NCBI GenBank assembly: GCA_945893365.1
Contig: CAMDED010000084.1
Coordinates: 1-33,031, forward strand
Direction: 5' to 3'
Source of the DNA: Candidatus Sulfopaludibacter sp. SbA3
GTDB lineage: Bacteria; Acidobacteriota; Terriglobia; Bryobacterales; Bryobacteraceae
DNA: 33,031 nucleotides
Shown here: positions 4,397 through 33,031 of the stretch, in pieces
How the letters are laid out: every line of letters starts with the position of its first letter
Numbering within the stretch: the stretch's first letter is position 1
The notes under the pieces: model-generated
The model's input: only the letters and a program-made list of their open reading frames with translations
Database searches by the model: none
Told to the model about the DNA's origin: nothing
Position numbers and translations under genes: made by a program

Positions 4397-4409
4397 GCGC
4401 GGCGTTAAA

Positions 4410-4907: not shown

Positions 4908-4932
4908 ACTGGCTTAAGGGGGGACGGCAACG

Positions 4933-6704: not shown

Positions 6705-6764
6705 AGGGCGCGCGGGAACAAGACACACCGGACGTTGAGCAAACCAAGCCTGATAGGTGGCGGT

Positions 6765-6796
6765 CAGGGGCTTGGCCGCTACGGCTCCAGCCCCTG
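6765..6796. terminator. Hairpin between convergent genes
   Basis: CAGGGGCT (6765-6772) pairs exactly with AGCCCCTG (6789-6796), with a smaller CCG/CGG stem inside the loop and a short TTTT downstream on the plus strand. It lies between the converging cupredoxin and OmpA-like genes and could terminate both. The T tract is short, so intrinsic termination is only probable. Confidence 0.5.
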
Positions 6797-17628: not shown

Positions 17629-18257
17629 AGGTCGTGGTTGCCAAAAGGCCGGCGAGGCGGATCGTGCTGTGGACCCAGCGCGTACTCTTTGCCGCCGCCT
17701 TCTCCCTGCTCGCGTATTGCGGCTTCGTTCTGGCGGACGCCTGGCTATTCCAGAAATGGGAGCGCCGCCAACTGGAGCGGCTGCTGGCAGGCAGACAAGA
17801 CTCGAACGCGGGAGCGCTTCAAACGGCGTCTTCCTCTTCAGCGGAAACGGCGCCGCCGGCGGTGGCGAACGGCTTGATCGGCCGCATTGAGATTCCCCGT
17901 CTCGGCCTTTCGGCAATGGTCATTGAGGGAATCAGCGGAAGAACCCTCCGGCGCGCGGTCGGCCATATTCCCGGCACGGCCCTGCCGGGACGGCCGGGGA
18001 ACGTGGGCATTTCCGGGCACCGCGACACGTTTTTCCGGCCTCTGCGCAACATCCGGGAGAACGACATCATCACGCTCACCACGTTGTTCGGCGAATACCG
18101 GTATCGCGTCGTGTCCACCGAGGTAGTGGATCCATACGACGTTGCGGTGTTGAATGCCACCGGGAACGAGGTCCTTACCCTGGTTACCTGCTATCCGTTT
18201 TACTTCGTCGGCACCGCCCCCGACAGGTTTATCGTTCGTGCCGAAAGGGTCACCTGA
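17625..18257 (+). CDS. Class D-like sortase
   Basis: The 210-residue membrane-anchored transpeptidase has one N-terminal membrane segment (about 14-38) and a Ser/Ala-rich linker. The sortase beta-barrel carries His132 in ISGHRDTFF, Cys189 in TLVTCYPFYF and Arg201 in PDRFIVRA, so the catalytic triad is complete. TLVTCYPF plus VGTAPDRFIV is typical of class D enzymes. In Gram-positive bacteria, class D sortases attach proteins with LPNTA-like signals to the wall. Here the LPGTAS protein at 13745-14485 is a candidate substrate, and the acceptor in a Gram-negative envelope is unknown. ATGA overlap with the VWA gene makes that protein a probable partner. Confidence 0.9.
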   Translation: MKVVVAKRPARRIVLWTQRVLFAAAFSLLAYCGFVLADAWLFQKWERRQLERLLAGRQDSNAGALQTASSSSAETAPPAVANGLIGRIEIPRLGLSAMVIEGISGRTLRRAVGHIPGTALPGRPGNVGISGHRDTFFRPLRNIRENDIITLTTLFGEYRYRVVSTEVVDPYDVAVLNATGNEVLTLVTCYPFYFVGTAPDRFIVRAERVT

Positions 18258-18289: not shown

Positions 18290-18442
18290 ATGATGCCGAC
18301 GTTCAAAGAAAGACATTTGGTTCCGACCCATCACGCCGGGGAGCCGAAAAATCTGAAGACGCCGCTTTTCCGTACGGCAATCGGCCGCATCCGATTGATC
18401 CGGGATTACGGGCGCATGGCTGCAGGAGGAAACGCCCTATGA
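18290..18442 (+). CDS. Possible 50-residue leader peptide coupled to the GT4 gene
   Basis: This small frame opens MMPTFKERHLVPTHHAGEPK and ends GGNAL. Its TGA overlaps the ATG of the glycosyltransferase gene as ATGA, the same arrangement used elsewhere in the window. TAAGGAG lies upstream but about 15 bases away, further than usual. There is no recognisable domain; the peptide is basic with several His and Arg residues. It could be a genuine small gene, a leader for coupling, or chance. Confidence 0.3.
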   Translation: MMPTFKERHLVPTHHAGEPKNLKTPLFRTAIGRIRLIRDYGRMAAGGNAL

Positions 18443-20793
18443 TACAAACTTCCAATGTCCGCAAGATTGCTTTTGTGGGCGACCACCTGCCGCGCAAGTG
18501 CGGTATCGCCACCTTCACGTCCGACCTGCTTGCCGCCGTTGCAAGCGAGCATCCCGAAAGCCAGTGCTTCGCCGTTTCGGTCAACGACATTCAGAAGGGA
18601 TACCAGTACCCGGAAGTGGTGCGCTTCGAGATTGAGGAGCAGGATCTGTCGTCCTACCTGCGCGCCGCGGACTTCCTCAACATCAGCGACGTGGACATCG
18701 TCTGCCTGCAGCACGAGTTCGGCATTTTCGGCGGACCCGCCGGCGGTAACATCCTGGCGCTTCTGCGCGAGTTGAGAATGCCGGTCGTCACCACGCTGCA
18801 TACCGTTCTGCGCGATCCGAGCGCCGATCAGCGGCGCGTGATGGAGGGGTTAATCTCACTCTCCACGCGGCTTGTCGTCATGGCGGAGCGCGGATGCCAG
18901 ATGCTGCGGAGCATCTACCAGGCGCCGCCGTCGAAGATCGATCTCATCCGGCACGGCATTCCCGACGTGGGCTTCGTCGATCCGGCCTATTTTAAGGACC
19001 AGTTCGGCGTGGAAGGAAGAGTGGTGCTGCTTACGTTCGGGCTGCTCTCGCCGAATAAGGGCATCGAGAACGTGCTCAATGCGCTACCGCAAATTCTGGA
19101 GCAGTTTCCCGAAGTCGTTTATATCGTCCTCGGGGCCACGCATCCGAACGAGCTGCGCGAGCACGGTGAATCTTACCGGCTCGGCCTCGAAATGCTCGCG
19201 AAGAAGAACAAAGTCGACAAGAACGTCATCTTCTACAACCAATTCGTGGATATTGAGAATCTCAAGGAGTTCATCGGCTCGGCCGACCTTTACATTACGC
19301 CTTACCTTAACGAAGCGCAGATCACCTCGGGCACGCTCGCCTACGCGTTCGGCGCCGGCAAGGCGGTGGTCTCGACACCGTACTGGCACGCCGCGGAATT
19401 GTTGGCGGACGGCCGCGGGGTGTTGGTGCCGTTCGGCGACGCGGCGGCCATTGCGCGCGAAACGATCGCGCTGCTTGGGGACGACACCCGCCGCCATGCC
19501 ATGCGCAAAAATGCTTACAGGATAGGCCGCGAGATGATTTGGAGCAACGTGGGGCGGCTCTATATGCGCTCCTTCGAGTGCTCGCGCCTCGAAGTAGCGG
19601 CGCTGTCGCGAAAATCTCTGGCCAATAAGACGCTCGACCTGAAGCCGCGGGAACTGCCGAAGATCAAGCTGAGTCATCTCTCCCGGATGACCGATTCGAC
19701 CGGAGTCTTTCAGCACGCCATTTTCAGCGTTCCGAATTTTTCCGAAGGCTACTGCACCGACGATAACGCCCGCGCTTTCATCCTGGCGGTGCTGCTCGGC
19801 GAATTAGGCGAGGATCCGGAGTCCGTGCGGACGCTCGCCACCACCACCGGGGCTTTCCTCCATCACGCTTTCGATCTCAAAACGAAACGATTCCACAACC
19901 ACTTGAGTTTCGACCGGCGCTGGCTGGACGAACAGGGATCGGAGGACTGCCACGGGAGGGCGCTCTGGGCGCTGGGCGTCGGCGTGGGGCGTTCGCCCTG
20001 CAGGAACTTCCAGATGATGGCCGGCCAGCTCTTCGCGCTGGCGTTGCCCGCGCTGACCGGGTTCACCTCGCCGCGGGCTTGGGCGTTCGGTCTGATCGGA
20101 ATCCACGAATATCTGCGCAGGTTGAGCGGCGACAGCCTCGTCAACCAAACGAGGGAGATACTGACATCCCGGCTCATGGATCTCTTCGAAGCGGCCGCGC
20201 AGCCGGACTGGCAGTGGTTTGAACAGGAACTGTCGTACGACAACGCGAAGCTTGCGTGCGCCTTGATTTTGAGCGGCCAGGGCATGGGACAACCAGCGGT
20301 GCTTGAGCGGGGTTTACAGGCCCTCCGCTGGCTCACGGAAATGCAAATGTCCGGGAAAGGCCACTTCCGTCCGATCGGCAGCAATGGGTTCTACCGCCGC
20401 GGCGGCGCGCGCGCCGATTTCGATCAGCAGCCGGTCGAGGCGCAGGCAACCGTTTCGGCTTGTCTGGCGGCCTATCGCGCCACATCGGATTTCTGGTGGT
20501 ACGAACACGCCCAACGCGCCTTCGATTGGTTTATCGGCTGGAACGATCTCGGACTGGAGCTCTACTCTTCCGAAACGGGCGGCTGCAGCGATGGGCTGCA
20601 TTTGGATCGGGCTAACGGGAACCAGGGCGCCGAATCGACCCTGGCCTACTTACTCTCATTGGCCGACATGCGATTGGTGCAGAATTTACTGACGAATTTT
20701 AAGGAACCGGCGCTGGTGAAGACGAACGGGCGGCCGCATCTCTCGATTCCCGTGGAACCAGCCTACGTCAATCCGTATGTCAATCAACGTTAA
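18439..20793 (+). CDS. GT4 glycosyltransferase fused to an alpha/alpha barrel domain
   Basis: The 784-residue protein has two parts. Residues 1 to about 390 form a GT-B family 4 glycosyltransferase: the N-terminal GDHLPRKCGIATFTSDLL loop, LLTFGLLSPNKGIENVL donor region, and ITSGTLAYAFGAGKAVVSTP. Residues about 415-784 look like a helical (alpha/alpha) barrel (SRMTDSTGVFQHAIFSVPNF, YCTDDNARAFILAVL, then repeated Trp-rich helices such as WFEQELSYDNAKLACALI). This resembles glycoside-processing barrels. AGGAGGA precedes the ATG. It heads an operon with GH130, GT4 and GH130. GH130 enzymes act on beta-mannosides, so a mannosyl donor is the likely substrate, but this is inferred. Confidence 0.87.
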   Translation: MIQTSNVRKIAFVGDHLPRKCGIATFTSDLLAAVASEHPESQCFAVSVNDIQKGYQYPEVVRFEIEEQDLSSYLRAADFLNISDVDIVCLQHEFGIFGGPAGGNILALLRELRMPVVTTLHTVLRDPSADQRRVMEGLISLSTRLVVMAERGCQMLRSIYQAPPSKIDLIRHGIPDVGFVDPAYFKDQFGVEGRVVLLTFGLLSPNKGIENVLNALPQILEQFPEVVYIVLGATHPNELREHGESYRLGLEMLAKKNKVDKNVIFYNQFVDIENLKEFIGSADLYITPYLNEAQITSGTLAYAFGAGKAVVSTPYWHAAELLADGRGVLVPFGDAAAIARETIALLGDDTRRHAMRKNAYRIGREMIWSNVGRLYMRSFECSRLEVAALSRKSLANKTLDLKPRELPKIKLSHLSRMTDSTGVFQHAIFSVPNFSEGYCTDDNARAFILAVLLGELGEDPESVRTLATTTGAFLHHAFDLKTKRFHNHLSFDRRWLDEQGSEDCHGRALWALGVGVGRSPCRNFQMMAGQLFALALPALTGFTSPRAWAFGLIGIHEYLRRLSGDSLVNQTREILTSRLMDLFEAAAQPDWQWFEQELSYDNAKLACALILSGQGMGQPAVLERGLQALRWLTEMQMSGKGHFRPIGSNGFYRRGGARADFDQQPVEAQATVSACLAAYRATSDFWWYEHAQRAFDWFIGWNDLGLELYSSETGGCSDGLHLDRANGNQGAESTLAYLLSLADMRLVQNLLTNFKEPALVKTNGRPHLSIPVEPAYVNPYVNQR

Positions 20794-22360
20794 ACGCACA
20801 TCCACAATCCTCAAGCCCGACCCGTCGCGCGTTCTCTTGAGGCCCTTCAGTCCCGGGAGTCCCGCCCGCGTGGCGGCGATCATCGCGAGGATCGTGTCGC
20901 TCCCGGAATACAGAGTAGGCCCGCTCCTGGATGAAGTCTCCTCTGAATTCTCCGGGAGGCACCAGACAATACACGATCTCTTCCGGCAACGCTTCGAACA
21001 GGTCCGCGGATTCACGCTGAAGGAGGAGGAACTATCCGAGCAAAGACAACTCCTGATCGGCTCCTATTTCCTGGCCGAATATTCTTTGGAGTCTGCCGCC
21101 CTGTTCAATCCTTCCATTGTTCCGCACCCCGACCAGACGGATGTCCCGGACGGCGCCCTGCGGTTTATTCTCAGCCTGCGCGCCACGGGGGAAGGCCACA
21201 TTTCCTCCCTCACGTTTCGAACCGGTATCATCCATCCCGATCAACGGATCGAGGTCTTGGCCCCAGCCGGCTTCCTGATCGAGCCGCGCCAGATCCCCAA
21301 CCCCCAGTTCGACAAGCCGCTGTTCGAGCGGAAACTCTTTGAACTGGGGTTGAACGGCGACTTTCCCCATCGGGTCATGGAGGGACTCCCGGACTCGTTC
21401 GCACTCGAAGAGCTTCGCGCCAGTCTCAGAGCCGAACAATTCCGTCTGCCGGATGGAATGACGCAGGAGGATCAGAACGCCGCCCAAGGGATTTGGATGC
21501 TGGCCCGGTCCAACTACGAAGTTCAGTTCCAGCCCGAACAGGAGTTGTCGGAGCGTATTCTTTTTCCCTCCACGCCCTCTCAACGCAACGGCATTGAGGA
21601 CGCCCGTTTCGCTTGTTTCCGCAACGATGACGGCACCCACGTCTACTACGCAACCTTCAGCGCCTACGACGGCACGATTGTGATGCCGGAGCTGTTGGAA
21701 ACGACCGACTTCCTCCGCTTCCGATTCCTGACATTGAACGGTCCGGCCGCCAAGAACAAAGGCATGGCCATTTTTCCCCGGAAGATCGGCGGTCTCTATG
21801 CCATGCTCTCGCGCCAGGACAACGACAGCATCTACCTGATGTTCTCCGACAACGTCCATTTTTGGAATGAGCACAAGCTGCTCCTCAAACCCGTTTTCCC
21901 GTGGGAGCTGATCCAGATCGGGAACTGCGGATCTCCTATCGAGACCGATGCCGGGTGGTTGGTCCTCACCCACGGCGTCGGCCCCATGCGAAAATACAGC
22001 ATCGGCGCGTTCTTGCTGGATCGCGATAATCCAAGCAAGGTCATCGGCCGTCTTCGCGAGCCCTTGCTCAAGCCGAATCAGAATGAACGGGAAGGTTATG
22101 TACCGAACGTCGTTTACACCTGCGGCGCTCTACTCCACAACGGCGAACTGATCATTCCCTACGGCTTGGCCGATTACGCCACCGGTTTCGCGACCGTCCC
22201 CCTCGCGCAGGTGCTGGCCGCCATGGATTCCGAAGGCTCAAGGACAGGTCCGAATCAGGCCCAAAGGGAGCTCGCCGAGGCGCAGTCCGGCATGAAATAC
22301 GAAGAGGCCCTGACACGTCCAAGTCCGGCCGGGGAGGAGCTCGAAGGGGCGCTGACTTGA
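20777..22360 (+). CDS. GH130-family glycosidase or phosphorylase (long form)
   Basis: The 527-residue protein has an N-terminal extension of about 170 residues before a GH130 five-bladed propeller. Key segments are GHISSLTFRTGIIHPDQRIE, NGIEDARF (catalytic-type Asp275), YYATFSAYDG, KNKGMAIFPRKIGG, VHFWNEHKLLLKP, GSPIETDAGWLVLTHGVG and VPNVVYTCGAL. GH130 members are beta-mannoside phosphorylases or beta-1,2-mannosidases; the two cannot be separated here. There is no signal peptide, so it acts in the cytoplasm. The start overlaps the previous gene by 17 bases. A 40-residue charged C-terminal tail is additional to the propeller. Confidence 0.87.
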   Translation: MSINVKRTSTILKPDPSRVLLRPFSPGSPARVAAIIARIVSLPEYRVGPLLDEVSSEFSGRHQTIHDLFRQRFEQVRGFTLKEEELSEQRQLLIGSYFLAEYSLESAALFNPSIVPHPDQTDVPDGALRFILSLRATGEGHISSLTFRTGIIHPDQRIEVLAPAGFLIEPRQIPNPQFDKPLFERKLFELGLNGDFPHRVMEGLPDSFALEELRASLRAEQFRLPDGMTQEDQNAAQGIWMLARSNYEVQFQPEQELSERILFPSTPSQRNGIEDARFACFRNDDGTHVYYATFSAYDGTIVMPELLETTDFLRFRFLTLNGPAAKNKGMAIFPRKIGGLYAMLSRQDNDSIYLMFSDNVHFWNEHKLLLKPVFPWELIQIGNCGSPIETDAGWLVLTHGVGPMRKYSIGAFLLDRDNPSKVIGRLREPLLKPNQNEREGYVPNVVYTCGALLHNGELIIPYGLADYATGFATVPLAQVLAAMDSEGSRTGPNQAQRELAEAQSGMKYEEALTRPSPAGEELEGALT

Positions 22361-22382
22361 GTTCGGAGGACCGTCCAACCGT

Positions 22383-23420
22383 ATGCTCGTCGCCAACAAG
22401 AGGGTTGCGGTCCTTTCGCCCGTAGCCTGGCGGACGCCCCCCAGGCGGTACGGCGCCTGGGAGACGGTCGCGAGCAACGTCACCGAAGGACTCGTATCCC
22501 GCGGCTGGGATGTGACGTTGTTCGCTAGCGGCGATTCGACGACCCGCGCTTGCCTCCATGCCGTGGTAGCCCAGGGATATGAAGAGGATCCGGCCGTCGA
22601 TCCTAAAGTCGCTGAATACCTTCACATCTCCGAAGCGTTCGAGCACGCGGCCGAGTTCGACCTCATCCACAGCCATTACGACTTCATGGCGCTCTCCTAC
22701 ACCCGGCTCGTGAAGACGCCGGTTCTCACGACCATCCACGGATTTTCCTCGCCCAAGATCATGCCCGTCTACGACAAGTATCGCGACGGGTACTTTGTCT
22801 CGATCAGCAACTCCGATCGCGCGCCGGGGCTGAACTACCTGGCGACGGTCTATAACGGAATCGACCTCTCGTTGTACCCGCTCCAGGAACGGGGCGGCGA
22901 TCACCTGATCTTCCTTGGGCGGATTCACCCCGACAAGGGCGTGCATCTGGCGATTGAGGTTGCCCGCCTCAGCGGGTTGCCGCTGCTCATCGCGGGCATT
23001 ATCCAGGATGAGACCTACTTCCGGGAGCAAGTGGAGCCCCACCTTAACGGGACGATCCGCTACATCGGGGCCGTGGACGTGCCGGGCAAGAACGAGTTGT
23101 TCGCGCGCGCCAGAGCGCTGCTGCACCTGAACACGATCCCGGAGCGATTCGGACTTGTCCTTGCTGAAGCGAATGCCGCCGGCGTGCCCGTCGTCGCCAT
23201 GGACCTCGGCTCCTGCCGGGAGGTGATCGAAGACGGGAGAACCGGGTTCCTGGTCAACAATGTGCAGGAGGCGGTCCTGTCCCTGGAACGTATTTCGGAA
23301 ATCGATCGCACCGACTGCCGCCGGCGGGTCGAGCGGTGTTTTTCCATCGAAACCATGGTCGAGGCCTACGAACGGGTCTATCGGACGATTTTTGAACGGG
23401 AAGCACAGAGCCGATTATGA
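22383..23420 (+). CDS. GT4 family glycosyltransferase
   Basis: The 345-residue GT-B enzyme has VAVLSPVAWRTPPRRYGAWE near the start, as in family 4 members. The donor domain contains HLIFLGRIHPDKGVHLAIEV and the EX7E motif in PERFGLVLAEANAAGVPVVA. GGAGGA stands ahead of the ATG, 22 bases after the preceding gene. It overlaps the next GH130 as ATGA. It probably adds a sugar to the glycan handled by the other three proteins; donor and acceptor are unknown. Confidence 0.9.
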   Translation: MLVANKRVAVLSPVAWRTPPRRYGAWETVASNVTEGLVSRGWDVTLFASGDSTTRACLHAVVAQGYEEDPAVDPKVAEYLHISEAFEHAAEFDLIHSHYDFMALSYTRLVKTPVLTTIHGFSSPKIMPVYDKYRDGYFVSISNSDRAPGLNYLATVYNGIDLSLYPLQERGGDHLIFLGRIHPDKGVHLAIEVARLSGLPLLIAGIIQDETYFREQVEPHLNGTIRYIGAVDVPGKNELFARARALLHLNTIPERFGLVLAEANAAGVPVVAMDLGSCREVIEDGRTGFLVNNVQEAVLSLERISEIDRTDCRRRVERCFSIETMVEAYERVYRTIFEREAQSRL

Positions 23421-24352
23421 AGCAGGACATTGTCAGACGATACGCGTACAACCCCATCCTCACCAAGGCCGAGATCCCCTATCCTGTGGAAACGGTCCAC
23501 AACGCCGCGGTCGTGAAGCATCGGAAGGAATACATCATGCTGTTCCGCTCCCATCTGCGCACGGGGCGGTCCATCATCGGTCTGGCGCGCAGCAGCGACG
23601 GATTCCACTTCACCGCCGATCCACAGCCCTTTCTGACTCCCGCGGCGGATGGTCCTTTTGCCGCCTATGAGGAGTTCGGCGTGGAGGACCCGCGCGTGAC
23701 GCGCCTGGAGGGGGAGTACGTCATCACTTACAGCGCCTACTCTCGAAACGGCGTGCGGATCGCTCTGGCGAAGACGAAGGACTTCTGCTGTGTGGAAAGG
23801 GTCTCGCTCATCACGGAGGCGGACTACAGAAACGTAGTGATCTTCCCGGAAAAGTTCGACGGACTCTATGCCCGGCTTGACCGTCCTCACTCGGAAATCG
23901 CGCCCTGGTCCATCTGGATCTCCTATTCTCCGGACCTCCATTTTTGGGGCGAATCCCAGCTCATCATGAGGCCTGAGCAGTATCACTGGGATGAGATGAA
24001 GATCGGTCCGGGCGCGCCGCCCATCAAAACGGACCAGGGATGGCTTTCCATCTATCACGGCGTTTTCGAAACTATGGACGGATCGGTCTATCGCCTGGGG
24101 GTAGCCCTGCATGATTTACTGAACCCGGCGAAAATCATCGGCGTGGGCGACTCGTGGATCCTTCAGCCGGAAGACCCCTGGGAAATCACGGGATATGTCC
24201 ACAACGTCGTATTCACTTGCGGCGCCGTTCCCGAGCCCGATGGAACCGTGAAGATCTATTGGGGCGGCGCGGACACGGTCATGTGCGTGGGAGAAGCGAA
24301 TGTCGCCGATCTCGTCGCGTTGTGCCTGGATCACGGCAGACCGGCAAAGTGA
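23417..24352 (+). CDS. GH130-family glycosidase or phosphorylase (short form)
   Basis: The 311-residue cytoplasmic enzyme begins MKQDIVRRYAYNPILTKAEI and has the typical GH130 landmarks: FRSHLRTGRSIIGLARSSDG, FGVEDPRV with the catalytic-type Asp91, KDFCCVERVS, GLYARLDRPH, GPGAPPIKTDQGWLSIYHG and GYVHNVVFTCGAV. It lacks the long N-terminal extension of the first GH130, so the two probably have different substrates or chain-length preference. It is the last gene of the operon and is translationally coupled to the GT4. Confidence 0.91.
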   Translation: MKQDIVRRYAYNPILTKAEIPYPVETVHNAAVVKHRKEYIMLFRSHLRTGRSIIGLARSSDGFHFTADPQPFLTPAADGPFAAYEEFGVEDPRVTRLEGEYVITYSAYSRNGVRIALAKTKDFCCVERVSLITEADYRNVVIFPEKFDGLYARLDRPHSEIAPWSIWISYSPDLHFWGESQLIMRPEQYHWDEMKIGPGAPPIKTDQGWLSIYHGVFETMDGSVYRLGVALHDLLNPAKIIGVGDSWILQPEDPWEITGYVHNVVFTCGAVPEPDGTVKIYWGGADTVMCVGEANVADLVALCLDHGRPAK

Positions 24353-24611: not shown

Positions 24612-25369
24612 CTAAGCGCTTATTTTCAACTTCGGCTGTCCACCAAAGCGGGCCGTTCGCCACCCGGCTGCGAACACAGTCGCAGCCCGTTCAATCCGGC
24701 CCCGCCGGTGGCCCGCTAAGGCCCGGAGTCGGCGGGATGACGAGCCGAGGAGGGCAAGGGCGACGACGGTGAGGAAGGCGGAGGACGGTTCCGGGACGCT
24801 CGAGACGGGATCTCCGCCGAAGGTGAGGATGTCGACCACGATGTAGGCGTTCTTGACTCGCAAGGCCTTGATGTCGGCCGAACCCCGGACAACACCGCGC
24901 CACTCGGCCGCGTTAAAGCCCCCCGGGGTCGAAATGGGGGCAGCGACAGCCAAGTTGTACGATTCGAGCACGGACAGGTTAGCGTCGAGGGCCTCGATGA
25001 TCGGGTCGTCGCCGACGCCAGCGGCGTAGTTCATCAGCGCCGACACCGCTGACACAGCCGATGGGAACTCGAAAATCATGAAGTTGGCGCCGCTATCGAC
25101 ACCCGCGAAGAATATTTCACTCCAAGAACCGTTGACAGCTAGAAAATAATTGCCGGTGCCGAGCACTGCGCCTACGCCGGTATTGGCGCCGAGGGCGCCA
25201 GCGGTGAACACGACACCTGTGGGTAGGACGACGGGGCCGGTCGTGAAGCAATACCCGCAGCCTGTTCGGGAATCGAAATCTTCGACCGTGCCCGTCCGGG
25301 GACGGCTATAAGGCCCGCAAAGCTTAGAATCGGAAGAATGGAGGCAAGCGCCAAGAGTCTCGGTTTCAT
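24612..25369 (-). pseudogene. PEP-CTERM exported protein, frameshifted
   Basis: The signal peptide (MKPRLLALASILPILSFAGL, ATG 25369, GGGAGGT ribosome site) is in one frame. The mature protein (TVEDFDSRTGCGYCFTTGPV onward) and the C-terminal PEP-CTERM tail (VPEPSSAFLTVVALALLG then SSSRRLR) are in another. The change falls near the four-base G run at 25298-25301 (C run on the coding strand); one extra base there would join the two frames. The frame also runs 29 or more residues past the basic PEP-CTERM end, which is unusual. Either a decaying gene or a sequencing error in the homopolymer. No exosortase gene is in the window. Confidence 0.75.
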
Positions 25370-25724
25370 TTGGTTTTGGTACCTCCCGGCGACATCCAAG
25401 GGTTGCGAATCTCGAGATCTTCGCAGCAAACATCAAGGACTCTAGCACCAGCCGTGGCGAAAAACAAGTGAAATTGGAGAGTAAGTCTTTAAATCCTTGA
25501 AGTTCTGTTCCGTCCCGTGCTTCGCAGGTATGGGAACGTGGCGCCGGTGTCCACCATACACCGCGGCAATATGGCTGCGAAGTCGCGAGACCGGAAAGCC
25601 GCGTCGGTGCATAGCTTGAAGAGCAAACGAATCGCGCAAACAGACCGAGCGGGACGTTCGTCGCTCCCGGGTTCGTGCAAGTCGCAATCGTTGGCGGCGG
25701 ACAAGTCTTGGAGGTACCGACCGC
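25370..25724. other. Gene-free stretch between PEP-CTERM gene and HDO gene
   Basis: Short frames occur on both strands but none has a plausible ribosome site or motif. The HDO gene on the minus strand ends at its edge; the PEP-CTERM gene's promoter must lie here, but I cannot point to it. Confidence 0.45.
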
Positions 25725-26555
25725 CTACTCCGCGTTGGCCGTTATGATGGACGGAACTTCATGGGTGGACCGAGACAGGCAATCATCGAGGTATCGCGCC
25801 GACGTTTCGAGACACGCCGCGATGCCTTCCGCAACAGGTATCCGCAGCCTGGGGTCCAGCCGAATGCTGGGTGCGATCACGCCTTCGCTCCAATCCGACG
25901 CATGGCCCTCGTCGCACTCCACATGTACCCGGATGAACTCGAGATCCGCGGGGTCGAACTGGAGACGCTCGAGACCCGCGCCCATTTGAGTCATCCGGTA
26001 ATGAGCCATGACCTCGGTCGCGTAGAGAGAACCGGCCAGGCGCCAGGGATCGCAGTAGTAACCGTAGTAAAAGACGAGAATACGATCGGCCAGCGTGGGG
26101 AACGCTTCGAGTCGCAGTTCGTCGCCGCTGCGCGCCTTCAATGCTGTAACGAGGCGTCGCATCAAGTCCGCATGCGGCGCGGGTACATTTTCATCCTCAA
26201 TGTTGCGAAGGACGGCGGCGCGGCCCTCGTCGCAGATCTGCGCCGCAAGAGTACGCTCCACGAGCGGCAGAAATGCGGGAAGCGGCGAATTTTCGAGAAT
26301 GAACGCCGCGAATTCCCTCACGCTGGCCCCCTGCGCCAGGTAGTCATACCAGGAGTGCCGGTGCGCGCGATGCTCGAGGATCGTACGGGTCCAGCCCTGT
26401 TCACCTTGCTCGAGGAGAGCGGCCGCAAGTGGACTCGATCGCTCCTTTTGGCCGTGCCACCAGAGCCGCAGGGTGCGTTCTTCCTCGGCGTCGAGATGCG
26501 TTGCGACACGTTGTTGACATGTCCTTAGAAGTTCCGTTTCAGTAAGAGTCAGCAT
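25725..26555 (-). CDS. Haem-oxygenase-like diiron oxidase (HDO) / iron-containing redox enzyme
   Basis: The 276-residue all-helical protein has the pattern of the haem-oxygenase-like diiron family: NIEDE (118-122) followed by His128, an acidic helix around Glu181 (YATEVMAH), and HVECDEGHASDW (211-222) with Asp215 and His218. These are candidate iron ligands. Known relatives include UndA-type and SznF-type oxygenases, which decarboxylate fatty acids or oxidise N groups. It is the last gene of a five-enzyme operon. Its first 27 codons and leader are duplicated 1.47 kb upstream, between the P450 and ligase genes. Confidence 0.78.
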   Translation of the reverse strand: MLTLTETELLRTCQQRVATHLDAEEERTLRLWWHGQKERSSPLAAALLEQGEQGWTRTILEHRAHRHSWYDYLAQGASVREFAAFILENSPLPAFLPLVERTLAAQICDEGRAAVLRNIEDENVPAPHADLMRRLVTALKARSGDELRLEAFPTLADRILVFYYGYYCDPWRLAGSLYATEVMAHYRMTQMGAGLERLQFDPADLEFIRVHVECDEGHASDWSEGVIAPSIRLDPRLRIPVAEGIAACLETSARYLDDCLSRSTHEVPSIITANAE

Positions 26556-26585
26556 ATTTTCCGCTCCGTTCGAAGTAGCCCGGCA
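26474..26585. repeat. Junction repeat, copy A (HDO start and leader)
   Basis: About 112 bp covering HDO codons 1-27 and its leader match 27943-28056 at roughly three quarters of positions, from TGCGTTCTTC to CGAAGTAGC. The leader part still spells YFERSG in one minus-strand frame, the same residues as the C-terminus of the P450. The copied segment therefore originally spanned a P450-HDO junction. Confidence 0.75.
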
Positions 26586-26600
26586 AGAAATGAAGCCCGA

Positions 26601-27890
26601 TCAGTGTACCTCCTCAAGCGTCTTGATGATCGGCCGCTTTCCGGACCGTTCGGGCGGAATCTCCGCGACGGTGCGGACGCCGGCCTCCACCCCCGGGCCG
26701 AGCAGCTTTGACATCTCGTCGCGCAACCGGGCGGCGGCGGACTCGTTCCAGGCGTCGCCCGGCACGACCAGCAAGGTAACGCGCCGGTTTCCCTCCCGAA
26801 CGATTTGGTAGTGCCGGACGTCGTCGGTGTGGCGGTTATAGACAAATAGGTAGTAGGCCAGGCTCCCCGGCCTGATCACTCTGTTGGCGGGAGTGGTCAG
26901 GCACTCGTCCGTGCGCCCATCGATCGGTCCGAGCAGCGGGAAACCGCGCCCGCAGGAGCAGGATCCCTCGGGACGGGCCGCCAAGTCACCCGTATCGTAC
27001 CGGATGAACGGACGGGCGTAGTTCCACAGGTCGGTTAAGACGATCCGGCCGGTCTCGCCATCTTCGGCCAGCGAGCCGTCTGGACGCAGGATTTCGCACA
27101 CTGCCAGCTCGGTATTCACGTGAAACCGCTCCGGGGAAGCCGCACAGCTCTGTGCGCTGAACCACCCGAATTCGCGCAGGCCGTACCGGTTGGTGATCGG
27201 AGCCTGAAAGTATTGTTCGATCAGCCGCCGGCGCGGCGGCGAAAGCGTCTCAGCCGTGGCGATGACGCCGCGCAGCGAACGGCTCAGCCGCAGGCCGCGA
27301 CGCAGCAGCAGGTCCGCCATGGTTGCCAGCGTCGAGGTATAACCGAAGACGAATTCCGGCCTGCACGCCTCGATGCGCCGCCAGATGTCCTCGGCCCGCC
27401 CCGCGTCAATGTCCCAGATCGAGATCCTATCTTGCGTAAAGCGATCATGGACACGCTGCAACCAGGGGAGCATGCGTAGGCCGCCGGACCCTGGCGGCGG
27501 GGGCACTGCGATGCGCAGGCAGCGATCGAATGGGCGCAGGCCGATCCAGGAATCGTAGGAAAGCTGACTGGCGAAGGCAACCGGCAGGGCGGCGCGGTCC
27601 ACTTCGAAGCGGAACGGCACGCCCGTAGATCCGGAGGTCGCCTTCTCCATGCGCCGCTGCGCCGGCAGGTTCGACGCCGCGAACGCCTCCGGCGGATGGT
27701 TGCGGTAGGCCGACTTGTCCATCACCGGCAGGTGGTTGATGTCGAGCCCCCGGTAGAAGGGCACGTTCTGGACGGCGTGGCGCAGCAGCCGCAGCCGCCG
27801 CGCTTCCGATCGTCGGCGCAGCTCCTCGGTGGGGAGCCACTGGGCGCGGTTGAGCTCAAGCAGCGTTTTGACGATTCCGATGGCTGTCAA
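26601..27890 (-). CDS. PaaK/CapK-like adenylate-forming ligase
   Basis: The 429-residue product resembles phenylacetate-CoA ligase family proteins. It has the AMP-binding loop KATSGSTGVPFRF, NRYGLREFG, RYDTGD, a CSCGRGFPLLGPIDGRTDE segment and a C-terminal lysine region (RSGKRPIIKTLEEVH). The family activates a carboxylic acid as an acyl-adenylate and passes it to CoA or another acceptor. I chose TTG 27890: GAGGGA is 6 bases ahead and TTGA overlaps the stop of the preceding 45-codon frame. The frame extends to 28076 but would run through the P450 end. The gene is flanked on both sides by the 112-bp junction repeat. Confidence 0.83.
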   Translation of the reverse strand: MTAIGIVKTLLELNRAQWLPTEELRRRSEARRLRLLRHAVQNVPFYRGLDINHLPVMDKSAYRNHPPEAFAASNLPAQRRMEKATSGSTGVPFRFEVDRAALPVAFASQLSYDSWIGLRPFDRCLRIAVPPPPGSGGLRMLPWLQRVHDRFTQDRISIWDIDAGRAEDIWRRIEACRPEFVFGYTSTLATMADLLLRRGLRLSRSLRGVIATAETLSPPRRRLIEQYFQAPITNRYGLREFGWFSAQSCAASPERFHVNTELAVCEILRPDGSLAEDGETGRIVLTDLWNYARPFIRYDTGDLAARPEGSCSCGRGFPLLGPIDGRTDECLTTPANRVIRPGSLAYYLFVYNRHTDDVRHYQIVREGNRRVTLLVVPGDAWNESAAARLRDEMSKLLGPGVEAGVRTVAEIPPERSGKRPIIKTLEEVH

Positions 27891-28024
27891 AACAGGTCCC
27901 TCGCTCCCGGAAGACCGCTCGGGTCCGTTCGCCTGGAGGACCTGCGTTCTTCTTCGCCGCCCGGATGCGTTCCGGCATATCGTTGACAGGGCTCTAGAAG
28001 ATCTATTTCGGTAAGGTTTGACAT
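27887..28024 (-). pseudogene. 45-codon remnant of a second HDO N-terminus
   Basis: The frame starts MSNLTEIDLLEPCQRYAGTH and continues PGGEEERR, clearly homologous to the start of the HDO gene (MLTLTETELLRTCQQRVATH, then LDAEEER). After the EEER it diverges and stops. It overlaps the P450 gene by 22 bases and the ligase start by TTGA, so it may now serve to couple translation. GGAGAG lies just ahead of its ATG. It is either a truncated duplicate or the left scar of the ligase insertion. Confidence 0.7.
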
Positions 28025-28056
28025 TTCTCTCCGCTTCTTTCGAAGTAGCTCTGGCA
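27943..28056. repeat. Junction repeat, copy B (P450 end and HDO-like start)
   Basis: Imperfect direct copy of 26474-26585. Here it covers the last codons of the P450 gene (SYFERSGEKCQTLPK) and the first 27 codons of the HDO-like remnant. Both copies have the same orientation and flank the ligase gene. Confidence 0.75.
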
Positions 28057-29376
28057 GAGTCGCAAGCGGCGCGCATGCCACACCATGAAGCTCCCCAGGG
28101 TGAGCTGAACGACGCTGCCCCAGACGTCTTCCCAGCTGTCGCGAATGCGCATGAACGCGAGCAGCGCCCGGCTCCGCCGCCGATCGTCCTTTTGTTCCCT
28201 TGGAATGAGCAGGCATGGTCCCCGGTGCGGAATCGAGCGCGTATGCGACGCCGAGGAGCGGAGCTTGAAGCGCCTGAGCATTTCCCGCGCCGCCACCCGC
28301 ATCGTGATCAGCGCCACGGAATGCGCCGGACAGGGCCGGTTGGCCGTGACTCCGAATGGAATGTAGGTCGCCTCGTTCGCCGCCAAATTCTCCCACCGGC
28401 CGGGGTCGAACCGCTCCGGGTCGTCAAAGCCCGCACGGTGGTACTCGGGGTAGTTGAAGCACACCACTGAGTCTTTGGGAATCGTGGTCCCTTCGTCAAC
28501 CGCGATATCCGACGAAGCGATTCGGTGGGCGATTCCGAAAAGCGGAAACATTCGCAGTGTCTCGGCCAAAACGCGGTCGAGATAGGCGTCGTCCGTGGAA
28601 TCGCCGGCAAGCTTGGCCTGCACATTCCCGTGCTGAGCGATCGCCATTAAGAGATGGGTCATCGCTTCGGACATCTGTACCACGGCCGTGTTAAAGAAAA
28701 CTCCCTGGAGATACAGAGCCCGCTCCTCTGTGGATAAACTTTCGGGGAGCGTGTGGGGCACGCCCCCCTCGAGTCTGCGGATCAGGAAACGCGTGAGCCT
28801 GCTCCGTTTTTGCATATGGCGCAGGCCGCGGCATTTGAGCGCGGTAACGACGTCGTTCGCATTGCCCACGATCAGGTCGCGAGCGTTCCGCGGACAGGTC
28901 TCGCCAAAAACCAGCTCGTAGTAGAACTCGGCCCAAACCGGCATCATCACGTCGCGCAGCCGGACGAGATTCGCGCTCCGAAAGTCCTGCTGGTCTAATA
29001 CGCGGGTAACGCACCTGGACGCCAGATCCTCCGCTTCCGTCTTCGACAAAGCGAGGATGCGGCGGGTCGATCGCGCGACTTCTTCGTACCTTTTGCCCGG
29101 TTCGAGATGTTCCTGGTGGACTTCGGGTCCGGGTGAGAGCCAGTACCAGAAAAGATCCGAGAGCGCCGCGCCCCGGCTCCTGCCGTTGGCCGCGGAGTGG
29201 GAGTAAACCTGCTTGAAACGCGAGGCATCGACGAGCGGACCCGGAATCGGGATGCCTTCCTCGCCGTTGACGCGCGTGAAGATGCGCATGCGCAAACGAA
29301 CGATCGCGGGCGGAAGCCAGTAGGGAAGGCTCATCGCCAGGAGTGCGCCCGCAGCCAGGCTAAGGGCAATCAACAT
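28003..29376 (-). CDS. Membrane-anchored cytochrome P450 with atypical I-helix and haem loop
   Basis: The 457-residue P450 starts at ATG 29376 (GGAGGGA ahead). It has an N-terminal membrane segment (about 2-18) followed by WLPPAIVR, similar to microsomal anchors and unusual in bacteria. The K-helix ExxR is intact (AETLR, 271-275), as is DPERFDPGRWE. The haem loop reads PFGVTANRPCPAH (340-352): Arg347 and Cys349 remain, but there is one extra residue compared with FxxGxRxCxG and no glycine after Cys. The I-helix reads FFNTAVVQMSEAM, lacking the acid-Thr pair used for O2 activation. A hydrophobic C-terminal extension of about 60 residues (398-457) follows the core. It overlaps the FMN oxidase gene by 7 bases. 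Confidence 0.87.
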   Translation of the reverse strand: MLIALSLAAGALLAMSLPYWLPPAIVRLRMRIFTRVNGEEGIPIPGPLVDASRFKQVYSHSAANGRSRGAALSDLFWYWLSPGPEVHQEHLEPGKRYEEVARSTRRILALSKTEAEDLASRCVTRVLDQQDFRSANLVRLRDVMMPVWAEFYYELVFGETCPRNARDLIVGNANDVVTALKCRGLRHMQKRSRLTRFLIRRLEGGVPHTLPESLSTEERALYLQGVFFNTAVVQMSEAMTHLLMAIAQHGNVQAKLAGDSTDDAYLDRVLAETLRMFPLFGIAHRIASSDIAVDEGTTIPKDSVVCFNYPEYHRAGFDDPERFDPGRWENLAANEATYIPFGVTANRPCPAHSVALITMRVAAREMLRRFKLRSSASHTRSIPHRGPCLLIPREQKDDRRRSRALLAFMRIRDSWEDVWGSVVQLTLGSFMVWHARRLRLCQSYFERSGEKCQTLPK

Positions 29377-30437
29377 TGTCCCTCCGATCGGCGGAGCATC
29401 ACGAAATCGCGGGACAGGGCGCCGGGCGAGCCGCATCCGCAAAACGCCAATGCGCGATCGAGCTCCGAGCGTAGCATCTCGAGTACCTGCTCCACTCCCT
29501 GCTGGCCGGCGAGGGCGAGTCCCCAGAGCACCGGGCGGCCGATCGCGACGGCGCGCGCTCCGAGGGCAAGCGCCTTAACGATGTCGGTTCCGCGCCGGAT
29601 TCCGCCGTCGAGCAGCAGGGGAATTCTTCCGGCGACCGCATCGGCAATGGGCGGCAGCAGTTCGATTGCGGCCGGCACGGTATCGAGCTGCCGCCCACCG
29701 TGATTCGACACGAGCAACGCATCGATACCGCGTCCGGCCGCCAGACACGCATCCTCAGGGTGCATCACGCCTTTAATCGCGATCGGCAAGTTAGTCACGC
29801 TCCGCAGCCACTCCATGTGCTTCCAGGAGAGATCCGGAGCGAAAACAATCGGCCGCGGCCGGCCTCCGTTGCCGTGATCGCGCATATTCTCGCAGCACAT
29901 CCCGGCCGGCAGATCGACGAAACCATTCCGCAGATCGCGCTCGCGGCGGCCGAACGCCGGCGAATCGACGCTCACGACCAAAGCCTTGCAGCCAGCCGCC
30001 TCGGCGCGCCGCACGATCGATTCGGTGAAACCGAGATCAGGCTGAATGTAAATCTGAAACCACAAGCTGGACGGGTCGCCCGCCGCCGCGATTTCCTCGA
30101 TTGCCCTAGTCGACGCCATGCTGGCGACCATGATCGTCCGCGCCGATGCCGCCGCCCGCGCCGTGGCGAGCTCGCCCTCGGCGTGAGCCAGCCGGTGGAA
30201 CGCAGTGGGCGCCACCAGCACCGGCATGGAGGAGCGGCAGCCTAGCAAAGTCGTTCCCAGTTCGCGTTCCGTCTCACCGCGCAGCACGCGCGGCACCAGG
30301 CCGACGCGCCTGAATGCAGCTTCGTTAGCCCGCAGTGTAATCTCGTCGTCCGCTCCGCCGGCGAAGAAATCGTACACCGCGGGGTCGAGACGGCGCCTCG
30401 CCTCAGACTCCATTTCGCGCAACGAGAGCGCTGGCAT
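29370..30437 (-). CDS. FMN-dependent alpha-hydroxy-acid oxidase/dehydrogenase
   Basis: The 355-residue TIM-barrel enzyme oxidises an alpha-hydroxy acid to an alpha-keto acid. All family residues are present: the AGGADDE motif near the start, Tyr130 in FQIY, Asp158 in SVDSP, a following Arg (RERDLRNGF), Lys222 in AIKGV, His246 and Arg249 in SNHGGRQLD, and the FMN phosphate site LDGGIRRGTD and IGRPVLWGLA. ATG 30437 has GAGGA 7 bases ahead and lies 35 bases inside the upstream flavoprotein gene; the longer frame to 30710 is an overlap artefact. Its acid substrate is presumably linked to the acid used by the ligase in the same operon. Confidence 0.9.
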   Translation of the reverse strand: MPALSLREMESEARRRLDPAVYDFFAGGADDEITLRANEAAFRRVGLVPRVLRGETERELGTTLLGCRSSMPVLVAPTAFHRLAHAEGELATARAAASARTIMVASMASTRAIEEIAAAGDPSSLWFQIYIQPDLGFTESIVRRAEAAGCKALVVSVDSPAFGRRERDLRNGFVDLPAGMCCENMRDHGNGGRPRPIVFAPDLSWKHMEWLRSVTNLPIAIKGVMHPEDACLAAGRGIDALLVSNHGGRQLDTVPAAIELLPPIADAVAGRIPLLLDGGIRRGTDIVKALALGARAVAIGRPVLWGLALAGQQGVEQVLEMLRSELDRALAFCGCGSPGALSRDFVMLRRSEGQC

Positions 30438-32037
30438 TGTGTTCGTCCTCAAACCCGAGCCGGGTTGGCCGCTTGGGCGCCGCAATTTCACGGGCGAAGA
30501 AAGCGCGCAGCGGATCGCGATGCGCCGCCTGCCCGGTCCAGTCGTTCTCCAGGTTCTCCGTGACATGATGCTCTGCGGCAAGCGTGCGCTGGGAGAATCG
30601 CCGAACCACCGGGTGAAGATAACGGCCTTGGCCGGAATGCTCAGCGTCGCTTTGTGAGATGCGGCCGACCGAAACGTCGAATGGGTCGAACTGATCGTGC
30701 CCCGGGCCATACTCGAGGGTCAACGCGAAGTAGCTCTCGGCGGCGCCGAACTCGCCCTCGTGTACGTAGTCGACCGGTAGTTCCTCGTAGTAACGTGCGT
30801 CTCCGTCGCTCCCAACGACGATCAGATCGCAAAGAAAGCCGAACTCCTGCCACAAAGCCGAGGTCCGGTTCACGCGGGCGATCACCGCTTCCATGAGCAG
30901 GTTCGGATCGGCTGGAAGCCTTCGATGCGGCCATTCGCGGCCATGAAACTTTCGCTCCAGCATGCGGTGCAGCGCGCGTATGCAATAGCGGAATCCATGA
31001 ATGAATCCACTGGTGGACTTCTTATAGTCGCGCGTCTGCATCAGGGTTCCGGCAAAATACAGATCCGGAACGTTAGTTGATTCCCACTCCGAAGTCTGCG
31101 CCGGGAAGCGGTCGCGAATCGTCAGCGCCGGGCCGCAGTCATCCGCAAAGATCGAGGCGTCGAACCGGAACCCGGTGCAGGCGATCACACGATCATAGAT
31201 CAAGTCCTTCTTGACTTCATTGGCGCGTGAGAAGCTTACCGTCACTAAGTAGGACCGATCGCGGCGCTCGATGCGCTCGATGTTTCCATCGAGCAGAGCA
31301 TTCTGCGATTTGAGCTGATAGGTGTCCAGAAGCTGGTTGTTAACGGCTCGAAGATGACCCACATAGTGAGATCTCCAGGCCATGTGGATCGAGCTTGGAC
31401 CGGCGACGTGGATGACAGCCGCCGACTCGATCAGGTTGTCCGCGGTCTCGAAAGCCGAGTTACCCTTCCCGATGATCAGCACCCGCTGGTTCACGAACTC
31501 GCGAGGATCCACGGAAACGCCGGTATACAGTTCGGCTGTTTCGATACCGGGGATCGGCGGAATATACGGCTTCGAGACGCCGCTTGCCACGATTAGCCGC
31601 TTCGCCTCATACCGCCGACCCTGTTCATCGGTCGCCTGAAACGATCCGTTTCGGCTGATCCTGGCGATCCGCGACTGATAACGGATCCGCAGACCGAACG
31701 CCGAGGCGAAATCGCCGAGGTATCGCACCAGGTCGCCGGCGTCGGGAAAATAGCGCTCCGTGTAAAGTGGGAAGCGGAGGCTTGGATGGTCGGAGAGCAG
31801 GGAGTTCCAGTCCATCCGCAGGTTGACTTCCGGGTCGTCCGAACCGGTATGCGGCTTATTTATGGAGATAAGACGGCGATGACGCGGAAACGTCTGGAAG
31901 AACGTACCCGGTGAGTCTCCCGCTTCCAGGATGAGGTAGTTGCGGCCGGCCTGTTCTAGAAAGTATCCCAGTTGAAGTCCAGCCGGTCCGGCTCCGATCA
32001 CCAGGTAATCGATGTTAGTCGATACATCGGGTCCCAC
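30403..32037 (-). CDS. FOXRED2-like FAD-dependent oxidoreductase
   Basis: The 544-residue flavoprotein has an N-terminal FAD Rossmann motif (DYLVIGAGPAGLQLGYFLEQ), then PRHRRLISINKPHTGSDDPE, a second nucleotide-binding motif (VLIIGKGNSAFETADNL), and ACTGFRFD near the C-terminal FAD segment. The LISINK and NLRMDWNSLLS segments closely resemble the FOXRED2 family, related to flavin monooxygenases. GTG 32037 is preferred because GGAGG stands 5 bases ahead; a GTG at 32049 is possible. It is the first gene of the five-enzyme operon and may hydroxylate or oxidise the starting metabolite. Confidence 0.86.
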   Translation of the reverse strand: MGPDVSTNIDYLVIGAGPAGLQLGYFLEQAGRNYLILEAGDSPGTFFQTFPRHRRLISINKPHTGSDDPEVNLRMDWNSLLSDHPSLRFPLYTERYFPDAGDLVRYLGDFASAFGLRIRYQSRIARISRNGSFQATDEQGRRYEAKRLIVASGVSKPYIPPIPGIETAELYTGVSVDPREFVNQRVLIIGKGNSAFETADNLIESAAVIHVAGPSSIHMAWRSHYVGHLRAVNNQLLDTYQLKSQNALLDGNIERIERRDRSYLVTVSFSRANEVKKDLIYDRVIACTGFRFDASIFADDCGPALTIRDRFPAQTSEWESTNVPDLYFAGTLMQTRDYKKSTSGFIHGFRYCIRALHRMLERKFHGREWPHRRLPADPNLLMEAVIARVNRTSALWQEFGFLCDLIVVGSDGDARYYEELPVDYVHEGEFGAAESYFALTLEYGPGHDQFDPFDVSVGRISQSDAEHSGQGRYLHPVVRRFSQRTLAAEHHVTENLENDWTGQAAHRDPLRAFFAREIAAPKRPTRLGFEDEHNASALVARNGV

Positions 32038-32351
32038 TATTGCCTCCACTTACTGCTCTTTCCGGCTTCCAGGTTCGTACTGGATGCCCTCGGCAACCGG
32101 TTATCCACCTGCGCGGAATTCAACCTTCCGGTTGAGCGCACCGGCGCCGATCATCTGGAATCGAACCAAGTCGAAGTCCCGGCCTGTACGGCGCGGACAT
32201 CGCCCGATCAGGCGGATTCTTATTGTAATTATCTATCCTAACGTAACTGAGCGACAGAGCAATAGCGGGACACAACATTTTACAATCATTAACTTGTTAA
32301 TTGGTGCTTAATTGGTGCTAAACTACTTTGAATATTCGAAAATGACCACTG
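32038..32351. other. AT-rich upstream region of the biosynthetic-type operon
   Basis: No gene is seen. From about 32215 to 32345 the base composition is clearly AT-richer than anything else in the window. The presumed promoter of the flavoprotein operon lies here, but no clean -35/-10 pair stood out. An 11-bp tandem repeat is at 32297-32318. Confidence 0.5.
32297..32318. repeat. Perfect 11-bp tandem repeat
   Basis: TTAATTGGTGC occurs twice without a gap, followed by TA. The one-turn spacing would suit a regulator binding two half-sites on one face of the DNA; it could equally be IS-linked debris. Confidence 0.5.
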
Positions 32352-32468: not shown

Positions 32469-33031
32469 TCATGCCGGCGCCAGGGTAAGTTGTTTGGATT
32501 GAGGCAGCAGTGGCGGAGTTTCGAACGGGTCGTCCAGCCACGTCCGCAAATCACGGTAAGTAAACAGGTTCAGCCCCAACATCGAGGCCGGATTGGACAA
32601 GGACCATCGGGCCTTCGACAGATGGTGCAGCCATTTCAGCAGCAGGATCGCGATCAAGGCTGTCCAAATCTGGATGCGCGGGGCATTTTCGCCGGCGCCC
32701 ACGAAGCTCTTCACCTTGAGGTTCTGCTTGAGCGCAGCGGTCCTTGCAGATGGCGGCAAGGGTCGTGGCGCCAAACGCCGGCAGGTTGGTCGGCAACACG
32801 ATCTCCCGTTCGTTCACCGCATCCCAGACCACCACCCGCCGCAGCAGGCAGGGGCAATCCTTTTGAGCCTTGACACCAGTGAAACTGGATCGGTCGGTCC
32901 AACCGAATGTTGCGGTCCTTCGGAACCGCACACTCCTTCACCGCTTCGTACGCCGCATTTTCCTTCAGGCGGGTGACAAAGTAGATTTCCTCGGCGGTCC
33001 ACTTGCCGAACAGCCCGTAGTCGTTATACCC
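32469..33031 (-). pseudogene. IS4-family transposase remnant, 5' end outside window
   Basis: Reading from the right edge, three frames must be joined. The first is GYNDYGLFGKWTAEEIYFVT and RLKENAAYEAVKECAVP; the second contains RRVVVWDAVNEREIVLPTN and FGATTLAAICKDR; the third runs from ALKQNLKVKSFVGAGENAPR to the stop at 32469. Shifts occur near 32865 (A run) and at 32735/32736. At the second, about 23 bases are missing, removing the residues after KDR, including the catalytic Glu of the Y-R-E-K signature. The element cannot make active transposase. Confidence 0.82.

Follow-up and report, generated by a model that had tools for sequence, protein, structure and literature searches.

A conserved gene cassette of a flavoprotein, FMN-dependent hydroxy-acid oxidase, and cytochrome P450 with varying accessory genes in Candidatus Sulfopaludibacter sp. 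SbA3

The stretch of DNA analysed in this study (positions 1-33031 of contig C84; referred to as the window) comes from the 7.88-Mb genome of Candidatus Sulfopaludibacter sp. SbA3, and contains an operon-like run of five open reading frames (ORFs) on the minus strand (32049 to 25725). The run encodes a flavoprotein (FMO), FMN-dependent α-hydroxy-acid oxidase (FMN oxidase), cytochrome P450, PaaK/CapK-like adenylate-forming ligase, and haem-oxygenase-like diiron oxidase (HDO). We found that it was a member of a conserved cassette of FMO, FMN oxidase, and P450, which was patchily distributed and accompanied by varying accessory genes. The gap between the P450 and ligase genes held the relic of a second HDO start, and the conserved unit consisted of the first three genes, not five. 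A preliminary description, made from the sequence alone, had taken the five genes as one pathway unit: the compact run of five open frames was indeed present at its place, whereas the full set was seen only in the window; of 82 loci, the window included, 3 had the HDO beside the core and 1 the PaaK-like ligase.

Results

Conservation and distribution of the core genes

The P450 was 58% identical to a protein of Nonomuraea gerenzanensis, adjoined there by a 65% identical flavoprotein. When the P450s of the window and N. gerenzanensis were used to scan the genome collection, 177 relatives were obtained, the best 80 of which were taken together with one Nonomuraea locus (L003) and the window (82 loci in total). 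Since relatives were kept by best match, this sample is selected by P450 likeness; gene starts within it were chosen by our own codon scorer. FMO, FMN oxidase, and P450 genes occurred in the same order in 62 loci, and scattering of the genes in relatives, which the preliminary description had regarded as evidence against its proposal, was not seen for these three. Near the P450 gene, an FMN oxidase was found in 76 loci and an FMO in 69. FMO relatives beside the P450 were 56-74% identical. The frames of the oxidase and P450 overlapped in 49 of the 62 ordered trios, with a median spacing of -7 bp.

Some of the exceptions to the trio were contig ends (L029, L039, L058, and L083). Others were genuine: in addition to five loci without the oxidase (see Discussion), a flavoprotein was not found nearby in L017, L028, L042, L051, L052, L054, L055, L056, and L079, and a further gene stood between the oxidase and P450 genes in L034 and L049. 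As a separate observation, a sulfotransferase-like gene (Sulfotransfer_4, as named by the L003 copy) was located between the oxidase and P450 genes, in the same direction, in L028, L034, L049, L051, L052, L054, and L056; five of these seven loci had no flavoprotein nearby. A second draw of 31 loci was obtained from two genome searches and shared at least four contigs, as judged by their length, with the first set (L127/L067, L129/L045, L132/L058, and L133/L065). In all 31 loci, the gene immediately preceding that of the P450 encoded an FMN oxidase; an FMO was present in 30, and the ordered trio in 25.

Actinomycetota accounted for 76 of the 82 loci, and the others were single records of Chloroflexota, Pseudomonadota, Acidobacteriota, Candidatus Melainabacteria, and Myxococcota, together with the window. 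In searches around Streptomyces rimosus, in which members were counted at an E-value of 1e-100 or better, the P450 family was present in 6 of 396 genomes of the phylum. Among 296 genomes related to that of S. rimosus, 33 (about one in nine) had a member. Each carrier searched had a single P450 match per genome, and the seed is included in both counts; no assigned function was found for the family. The seed genome alone had the P450 in the phylum of the window (1/396 genomes; cut-off of 1e-15), the phylum of L057 (1/235; 1e-60), and the class of L024 (1/385; 1e-60), and no relative of the P450 or HDO was detected in scans of viral contigs. This patchy distribution fits transfer of the cassette. 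A tree of the trio, constructed by a quick method from 42 selected loci of the 82, weakly placed the window with L019, L024, and L025 (support of 83) and with L057 (78), and did not show a single origin of the HDO.

Residue pattern of the P450

The protein belongs to the cytochrome P450 superfamily on the basis of its haem Cys, ExxR motif, and fold. The haem Cys and the Glu of ExxR were invariant in the 82 sequences, and the Arg of ExxR was found in 80; the domain match to Pfam p450 was 2.1e-19. The predicted structure (predicted local distance difference test score (pLDDT) of 86 and predicted template-modelling score of 0.88) had an ordinary P450 fold, with a Z of 29.4 and root-mean-square deviation of 2.9 for 345 aligned residues. 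It contained anchor-like N-terminal helices (residues 2-14 and 16-36), which would correspond to the membrane anchor of the preliminary description, and a C-terminal helical extension. At least 95 residues followed the haem loop in all 82 proteins. CPA replaced CxG invariantly in the family, and the haem loop was one residue longer. ApyO, a P450 of ribosomally synthesized and post-translationally modified peptides, was rejected as the parent family (66 bits vs. a cut-off of 525).

The acid-alcohol pair of the I helix, which serves in O2 activation, was located by one profile alignment to 14 ordinary actinobacterial P450s (AGHETT against AVVQMS). The acid position was Gln in 82/82 sequences, while the alcohol position was Met (61), Leu (9), Gln (6), or Ala (1), and was kept as Thr (3) or Ser (2). 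According to this alignment, the pair appears to have been lost, the acid in 82 and the alcohol in 77 of the 82 proteins. Replacement of the same pair, with Arg-Pro in its place, distinguishes CYP152 peroxygenases, as stated in a passage of PMC5377825; in CYP119, a Thr-to-Met change modestly raised H2O2-driven epoxidation via methionine sulfoxide, according to a passage of PMC9112060. No ferredoxin-like sequence was found among the 6 small genes called within 3 kb of the P450 in the 82 loci. A ferredoxin motif scan of all frames (27/82 loci vs. 6/16 controls) was discarded, since nearly all of its hits were out-of-frame noise as judged by eye.

FMN oxidase and flavoprotein

The FMN oxidase (FMN_dh, 5.1e-126) showed homology over nearly its full length to glycolate/hydroxyacid oxidases (313 bits with glycolate oxidase in PDB). 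Lys, His, and Arg columns, which we take to be the active-site residues, were invariant in all 76 oxidases.

The flavoprotein was of the Pyr_redox_3 type (2.4e-49), and no FOXRED2 name appeared in the libraries searched, "FOXRED2-like" being a label of the preliminary description. A weak match to Lys_Orn_oxgnase was also obtained (25.9 bits vs. a cut-off of 21.3). When the class-B monooxygenase fingerprint (FxGxxxHxxxY/W) was placed on the flavoprotein, the position of the His was Ala in 62 and Val in 5 of the 70 sequences, and this motif was therefore not kept.

HDO, PaaK-like ligase, and the junction between them and the core

The features of the run are listed in Table 1. The first two junctions were overlaps, and the next two were spacings of 112 and 45 bp. 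The start taken for the P450 was preceded by a purine-rich stretch resembling a ribosome-binding site, as judged by eye. No frame for a transporter, polyketide synthase (PKS), or nonribosomal peptide synthetase (NRPS) was found inside the five-gene run, as had been described; in relatives, transporters were common (see below).

Table 1. Features of the five-gene run and its junction repeat
Feature	Position	Strand	Remarks
Flavoprotein (FMO)	30403..32049	-	548 aa; start GTG 32049 or 32037; stop 30403
FMN-dependent α-hydroxy-acid oxidase	29370..30437	-	355 aa; ATG 30437; overlaps FMO end by 35 bp
P450, divergent family	28003..29376	-	ATG 29376; 7-bp overlap with oxidase stop
Relic copy: P450 3' end and HDO 5' end	27943..28058	-	dead ORF 28024-27887
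PaaK/CapK-like adenylate-forming ligase	26601..27890	-	429 aa; TTG start
Second direct-repeat copy, at start of intact HDO	26474..26588	-	
Haem-oxygenase-like diiron oxidase (HDO)	25725..26555	-	276 aa; ATG 26555

The HDO matched Haem_oxygenas_2 (3e-18; 66.7 bits vs. a cut-off of 28.9). Its proposed diiron ligands, Glu122, His128, Glu181, His211, Asp215, and His218 (three His and three carboxylates), were assigned through an alignment with BesC and the ligand spacing, and were invariant in the three sequences (the window, L024, and L057). An AlphaFold2 model from these three sequences reached a pLDDT of only 47. The nearest characterised HDOs by profile, HrmI (1.2e-11) and BesC (8e-8), were remote. 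Passages of a 2026 review state that HrmI converts Lys to a nitro product, that BesC cleaves chlorinated Lys, and that functional validation covers about a dozen HDOs, whose substrates are mostly fatty or amino acids (PMC13108848).

Outside the window, an HDO was found beside the P450 only in L024 (Novosphingobium rosa) and L057 (a myxococcal metagenome-assembled genome (MAG)), in both of which the P450 and HDO genes were adjacent without the PaaK-like gene; the latter had no match in the other 81 loci (E-value of 1e-6). Only L039 ended less than 1.5 kb past the P450, and truncation is thus no explanation for the missing HDO and PaaK-like genes. A whole-genome search of seven carriers revealed a close HDO in the genomes of L024 and L057 only, together with additional weaker matches elsewhere in these two (1e-8 to 1e-12), and none of 100 other near genomes gave an HDO match.

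The PaaK-like ligase scored under the cut-off with Pfam AMP-binding (18.4 vs. 29.9 bits) and with the matching NCBIfam PaaK-type models (down to 4e-27; best, 95 of 300 bits). What we take to be the ATP-loop, TGD, and C-terminal Lys motifs were visible by eye. On either side of its gene lay a copy of a diverged direct repeat (116 and 115 bp), with 84 of 115 ungapped columns identical (score of 50 vs. at most 16 in 500 mononucleotide shuffles). The first copy encoded a dead HDO start, which began 22 bp before the end of the P450 gene. A similar overlap, of 19 bp, was found between the P450 and HDO frames of L024, and the older order was therefore probably P450-HDO. The sequence of the junction suggested that the ligase gene was probably inserted between the P450 and HDO genes with duplication of the junction; the same picture would result if the HDO gene had been duplicated in tandem and its first copy then replaced. 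Since PaaK-like relatives (25-36% identity) were common in the clade (18 of 60 other near genomes), the ligase may have been locally recruited.

Accessory and neighbouring genes

Neighbours were counted on either strand within four genes of the core, and named using Pfam on the L003 copies and NCBIfam. Of the 82 loci, 55 had a Na/H exchanger, 53 an ANL ligase, 53 a response regulator, and 50 a histidine kinase; Sulfotransfer_4 proteins occurred in 34. The exchanger matched NCBIfam CPA2 below the cut-off. The ANL ligase was closest to fatty-acid-CoA ligase models, and the PDB chain nearest to the L003 copy (273 bits) is named fatty acid CoA ligase. No PKS or NRPS appeared among the recurrent neighbour families as annotated (Pfam on ten neighbours), and mining tools based on such cores would therefore probably miss the cassette. 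The cassette of the window had no antiporter or two-component genes beside it.

In four loci, L006 (11317-12861), L015, L016, and L064, a major facilitator superfamily (MFS) transporter followed the P450 where other loci have the antiporter; the L006 copy resembled aromatic-acid symporters under the cut-off, hinting at an organic acid as a compound of the pathway. In L019 (Chloroflexota; 4295-6775), the trio was followed by a 429-aa protein without a Pfam or NCBIfam match at 1e-5, and then by a FAD_binding_3 monooxygenase.

In the window itself, the contig end adjoining the operon (32469-33031) held pieces of an IS4-family transposase, spread over more than one frame (weak matches to NF033592). 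Directly downstream of the operon was a possible PEP-CTERM-anchored protein (24612-25448, minus strand; PF07589 and TIGR02595, mostly under the cut-off). A plus-strand run of glycosyltransferase-like and glycoside-phosphorylase-like genes (18439-24352) and a sortase-like frame (17430-18257) were recognised by eye.

Discussion

A tentative reading that we favour, as possible rather than probable, is that a carboxylic acid is oxidised at the membrane by the enzymes of the cassette, using a peroxygenase-like P450 fed by the oxidase, followed by activation by a ligase. The FMN oxidase would convert an α-hydroxy acid to the α-keto acid and H2O2, and the adjacent P450 would use the released H2O2 in a peroxygenase-like manner, possibly on the same acid. 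The flavoprotein would perform a further NAD(P)H-linked redox step, and the ligase (ANL type in actinobacteria and PaaK type in the window) would activate the resulting acid as the acyl-AMP/CoA. In the window, the HDO may add an O2-dependent step: C-C cleavage or N-oxygenation. Use of the H2O2 of the oxidase is suggested by a P450 that would lack the O2-activating residues, was seen with no ferredoxin gene beside it, and nearly always adjoins the FMN oxidase. The observations themselves concern gene content and order, conservation, the residue pattern, and the junction repeat; we infer from them that peroxide is used, that the substrate is shared, in which order the steps occur, and that the product is an acid. 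The combination of oxidative enzymes and acid activation in one run, already proposed in the preliminary description, was supported by the present analysis.

A more specific form is doubtful: a dedicated FMN hydroxy-acid oxidase in overlapping frames would supply H2O2 on site to a P450 that gave up O2 activation, perhaps from the hydroxy-acid product of the P450 itself, in a peroxide relay widespread in actinobacteria to which a diiron oxidase was added in the window. If true, enzyme engineers would have in it a useful P450 peroxygenase system that is native and supplies its own peroxide. The window and its two HDO-bearing cousins are small gene sets suited to heterologous expression.

Several observations weigh against the favoured reading, and two of them most strongly. 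The FMN oxidase was missing, with the P450 and FMO kept, in Nonomuraea (L003, L021, L070, and L073) and [Actinomadura] parvosata (L050), indicating that these cassettes work without the oxidase or that its gene lies elsewhere. Furthermore, Ser directly followed the lost alcohol in 78 of the 82 P450s, and a shift of one residue would restore an alcohol; the loss of the pair thus depends on an alignment correct to one residue. In addition, the FMO was apart on the other strand in 5 of the 31 loci of the second draw. At a mostly-Tyr position of the FMN oxidase (56 Tyr, 18 Phe, and 2 gaps among 76), which we presume to be Tyr24 of glycolate oxidase, the window enzyme has Phe, and the FMN enzyme is possibly a dehydrogenase giving electrons to an acceptor other than O2. 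A P450 reductase or ferredoxin may also be encoded elsewhere in the genome, the ferredoxin scan having covered six small genes. Since the Arg-Pro signature of CYP152 is absent (Gln-Met in the window), the P450 is not a member of this family, and the fold does not choose because its matches were tied among CYP17, CYP51, CYP90, and CYP152 structures (Z of 27-29).

Amino-acid-derived N-O chemistry is unlikely. In this alternative, an amine would be oxidised by the flavoprotein and HDO (to an oxime, nitro compound, or the like), the P450 would act as an ordinary NAD(P)H-driven monooxygenase served by unlinked partners, and the product would be coupled by the ligase. The reactions of HrmI and BesC on Lys and chlorinated Lys (PMC13108848, in the passages mentioned above) and the weak Lys_Orn_oxgnase match of the flavoprotein are consistent with it. 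However, the core chemistry cannot be defined by an HDO that 3 of the 82 core loci have, the His of the class-B fingerprint, as placed here, is mostly replaced by Ala, and the P450 appears in the profile alignment to lack the acid-alcohol pair. An amino-acid substrate and diiron N-oxidation, which were among the options of the preliminary description, were not supported, the nearest characterised HDOs being only remotely similar; amino-acid N-oxidation is only one possibility among several.

Catabolism of lipids or organic acids, or a stress module, with α-oxidation and CoA activation under two-component control and coupled to ion homeostasis, may also be considered, and is likewise unlikely. 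The frequent antiporter and two-component genes, absence of PKS and NRPS among the annotated recurrent neighbours, fatty-acid-CoA ligase models nearest to the ligase, resemblance of the FMN oxidase to glycolate/hydroxyacid oxidases, and MFS gene after the P450 in four loci (with the L006 copy like aromatic-acid transporters, under the cut-off) all point in this direction. On the other hand, a patchy distribution (33/296 and 6/396) is unlike that of a housekeeping pathway, and the window version is without adjacent antiporter or two-component genes.

It is improbable that the P450 functions as a dehydratase or isomerase (e.g., from aldoxime to nitrile, the flavoprotein making the oxime). A lost acid-alcohol pair would suit a P450 that does not reduce O2, and fern cyanogenic glycoside synthesis begins with a flavin monooxygenase, according to PMC7486406; however, the tight pairing with an α-hydroxy-acid oxidase (31/31 and 76/82 loci) would be unexplained. 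A decaying transferred operon without coherent function in the window, suggested by the HDO relic, captured ligase, transposase fragments at the contig end, and lack of HDO matches in 100 other near genomes and of P450 matches in 395 other genomes of the phylum, is very improbable, given that all five frames are open and have retained the haem Cys and ExxR Glu of the P450, the FMN-site residues, and the diiron ligands.

Comparison with known systems

Among the top-ranked matches of full-text searches of open-access papers, aimed at the gene set or at single parts, no title or abstract start pointed to a characterised pathway of this kind, in line with the preliminary description, or to this cassette; subscription papers were mostly outside this scope. 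The FMN oxidase was homologous to glycolate/hydroxyacid oxidases and 4-hydroxymandelate oxidase (313 and 258 bits, respectively), with the presumed active-site Lys, His, and Arg kept. The HDO shared the ligand pattern with HrmI/BelK and BesC, which gave the best profile matches, but was remote from them, the comparison being of the protein alone. The P450 resembled the CYP152 enzymes OleT and P450BSβ in the (putative) replacement of the acid-alcohol pair and in the overall fold (Z of 27-28, tied with other P450s), and differed from them in the absence of Arg-Pro in the I helix, presence of a C-terminal extension, and weak sequence likeness (NF053744, 1.8e-5).

The closest relatives of the whole cassette were those of actinobacteria (Goodfellowiella L005, Actinomadura, and S. 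rimosus L075), which had the trio, its order, and short spacings in common with the window and 50-74% protein identity; they differed in often adding an ANL ligase, CPA2 antiporter, and two-component system, and HDO and PaaK-like genes were not found beside them. In N. rosa L024 and the myxococcal MAG L057, the core trio was followed by an HDO 49-51% identical to that of the window. These two differed from the window in having no PaaK-like gene, and L057 had the antiporter too.

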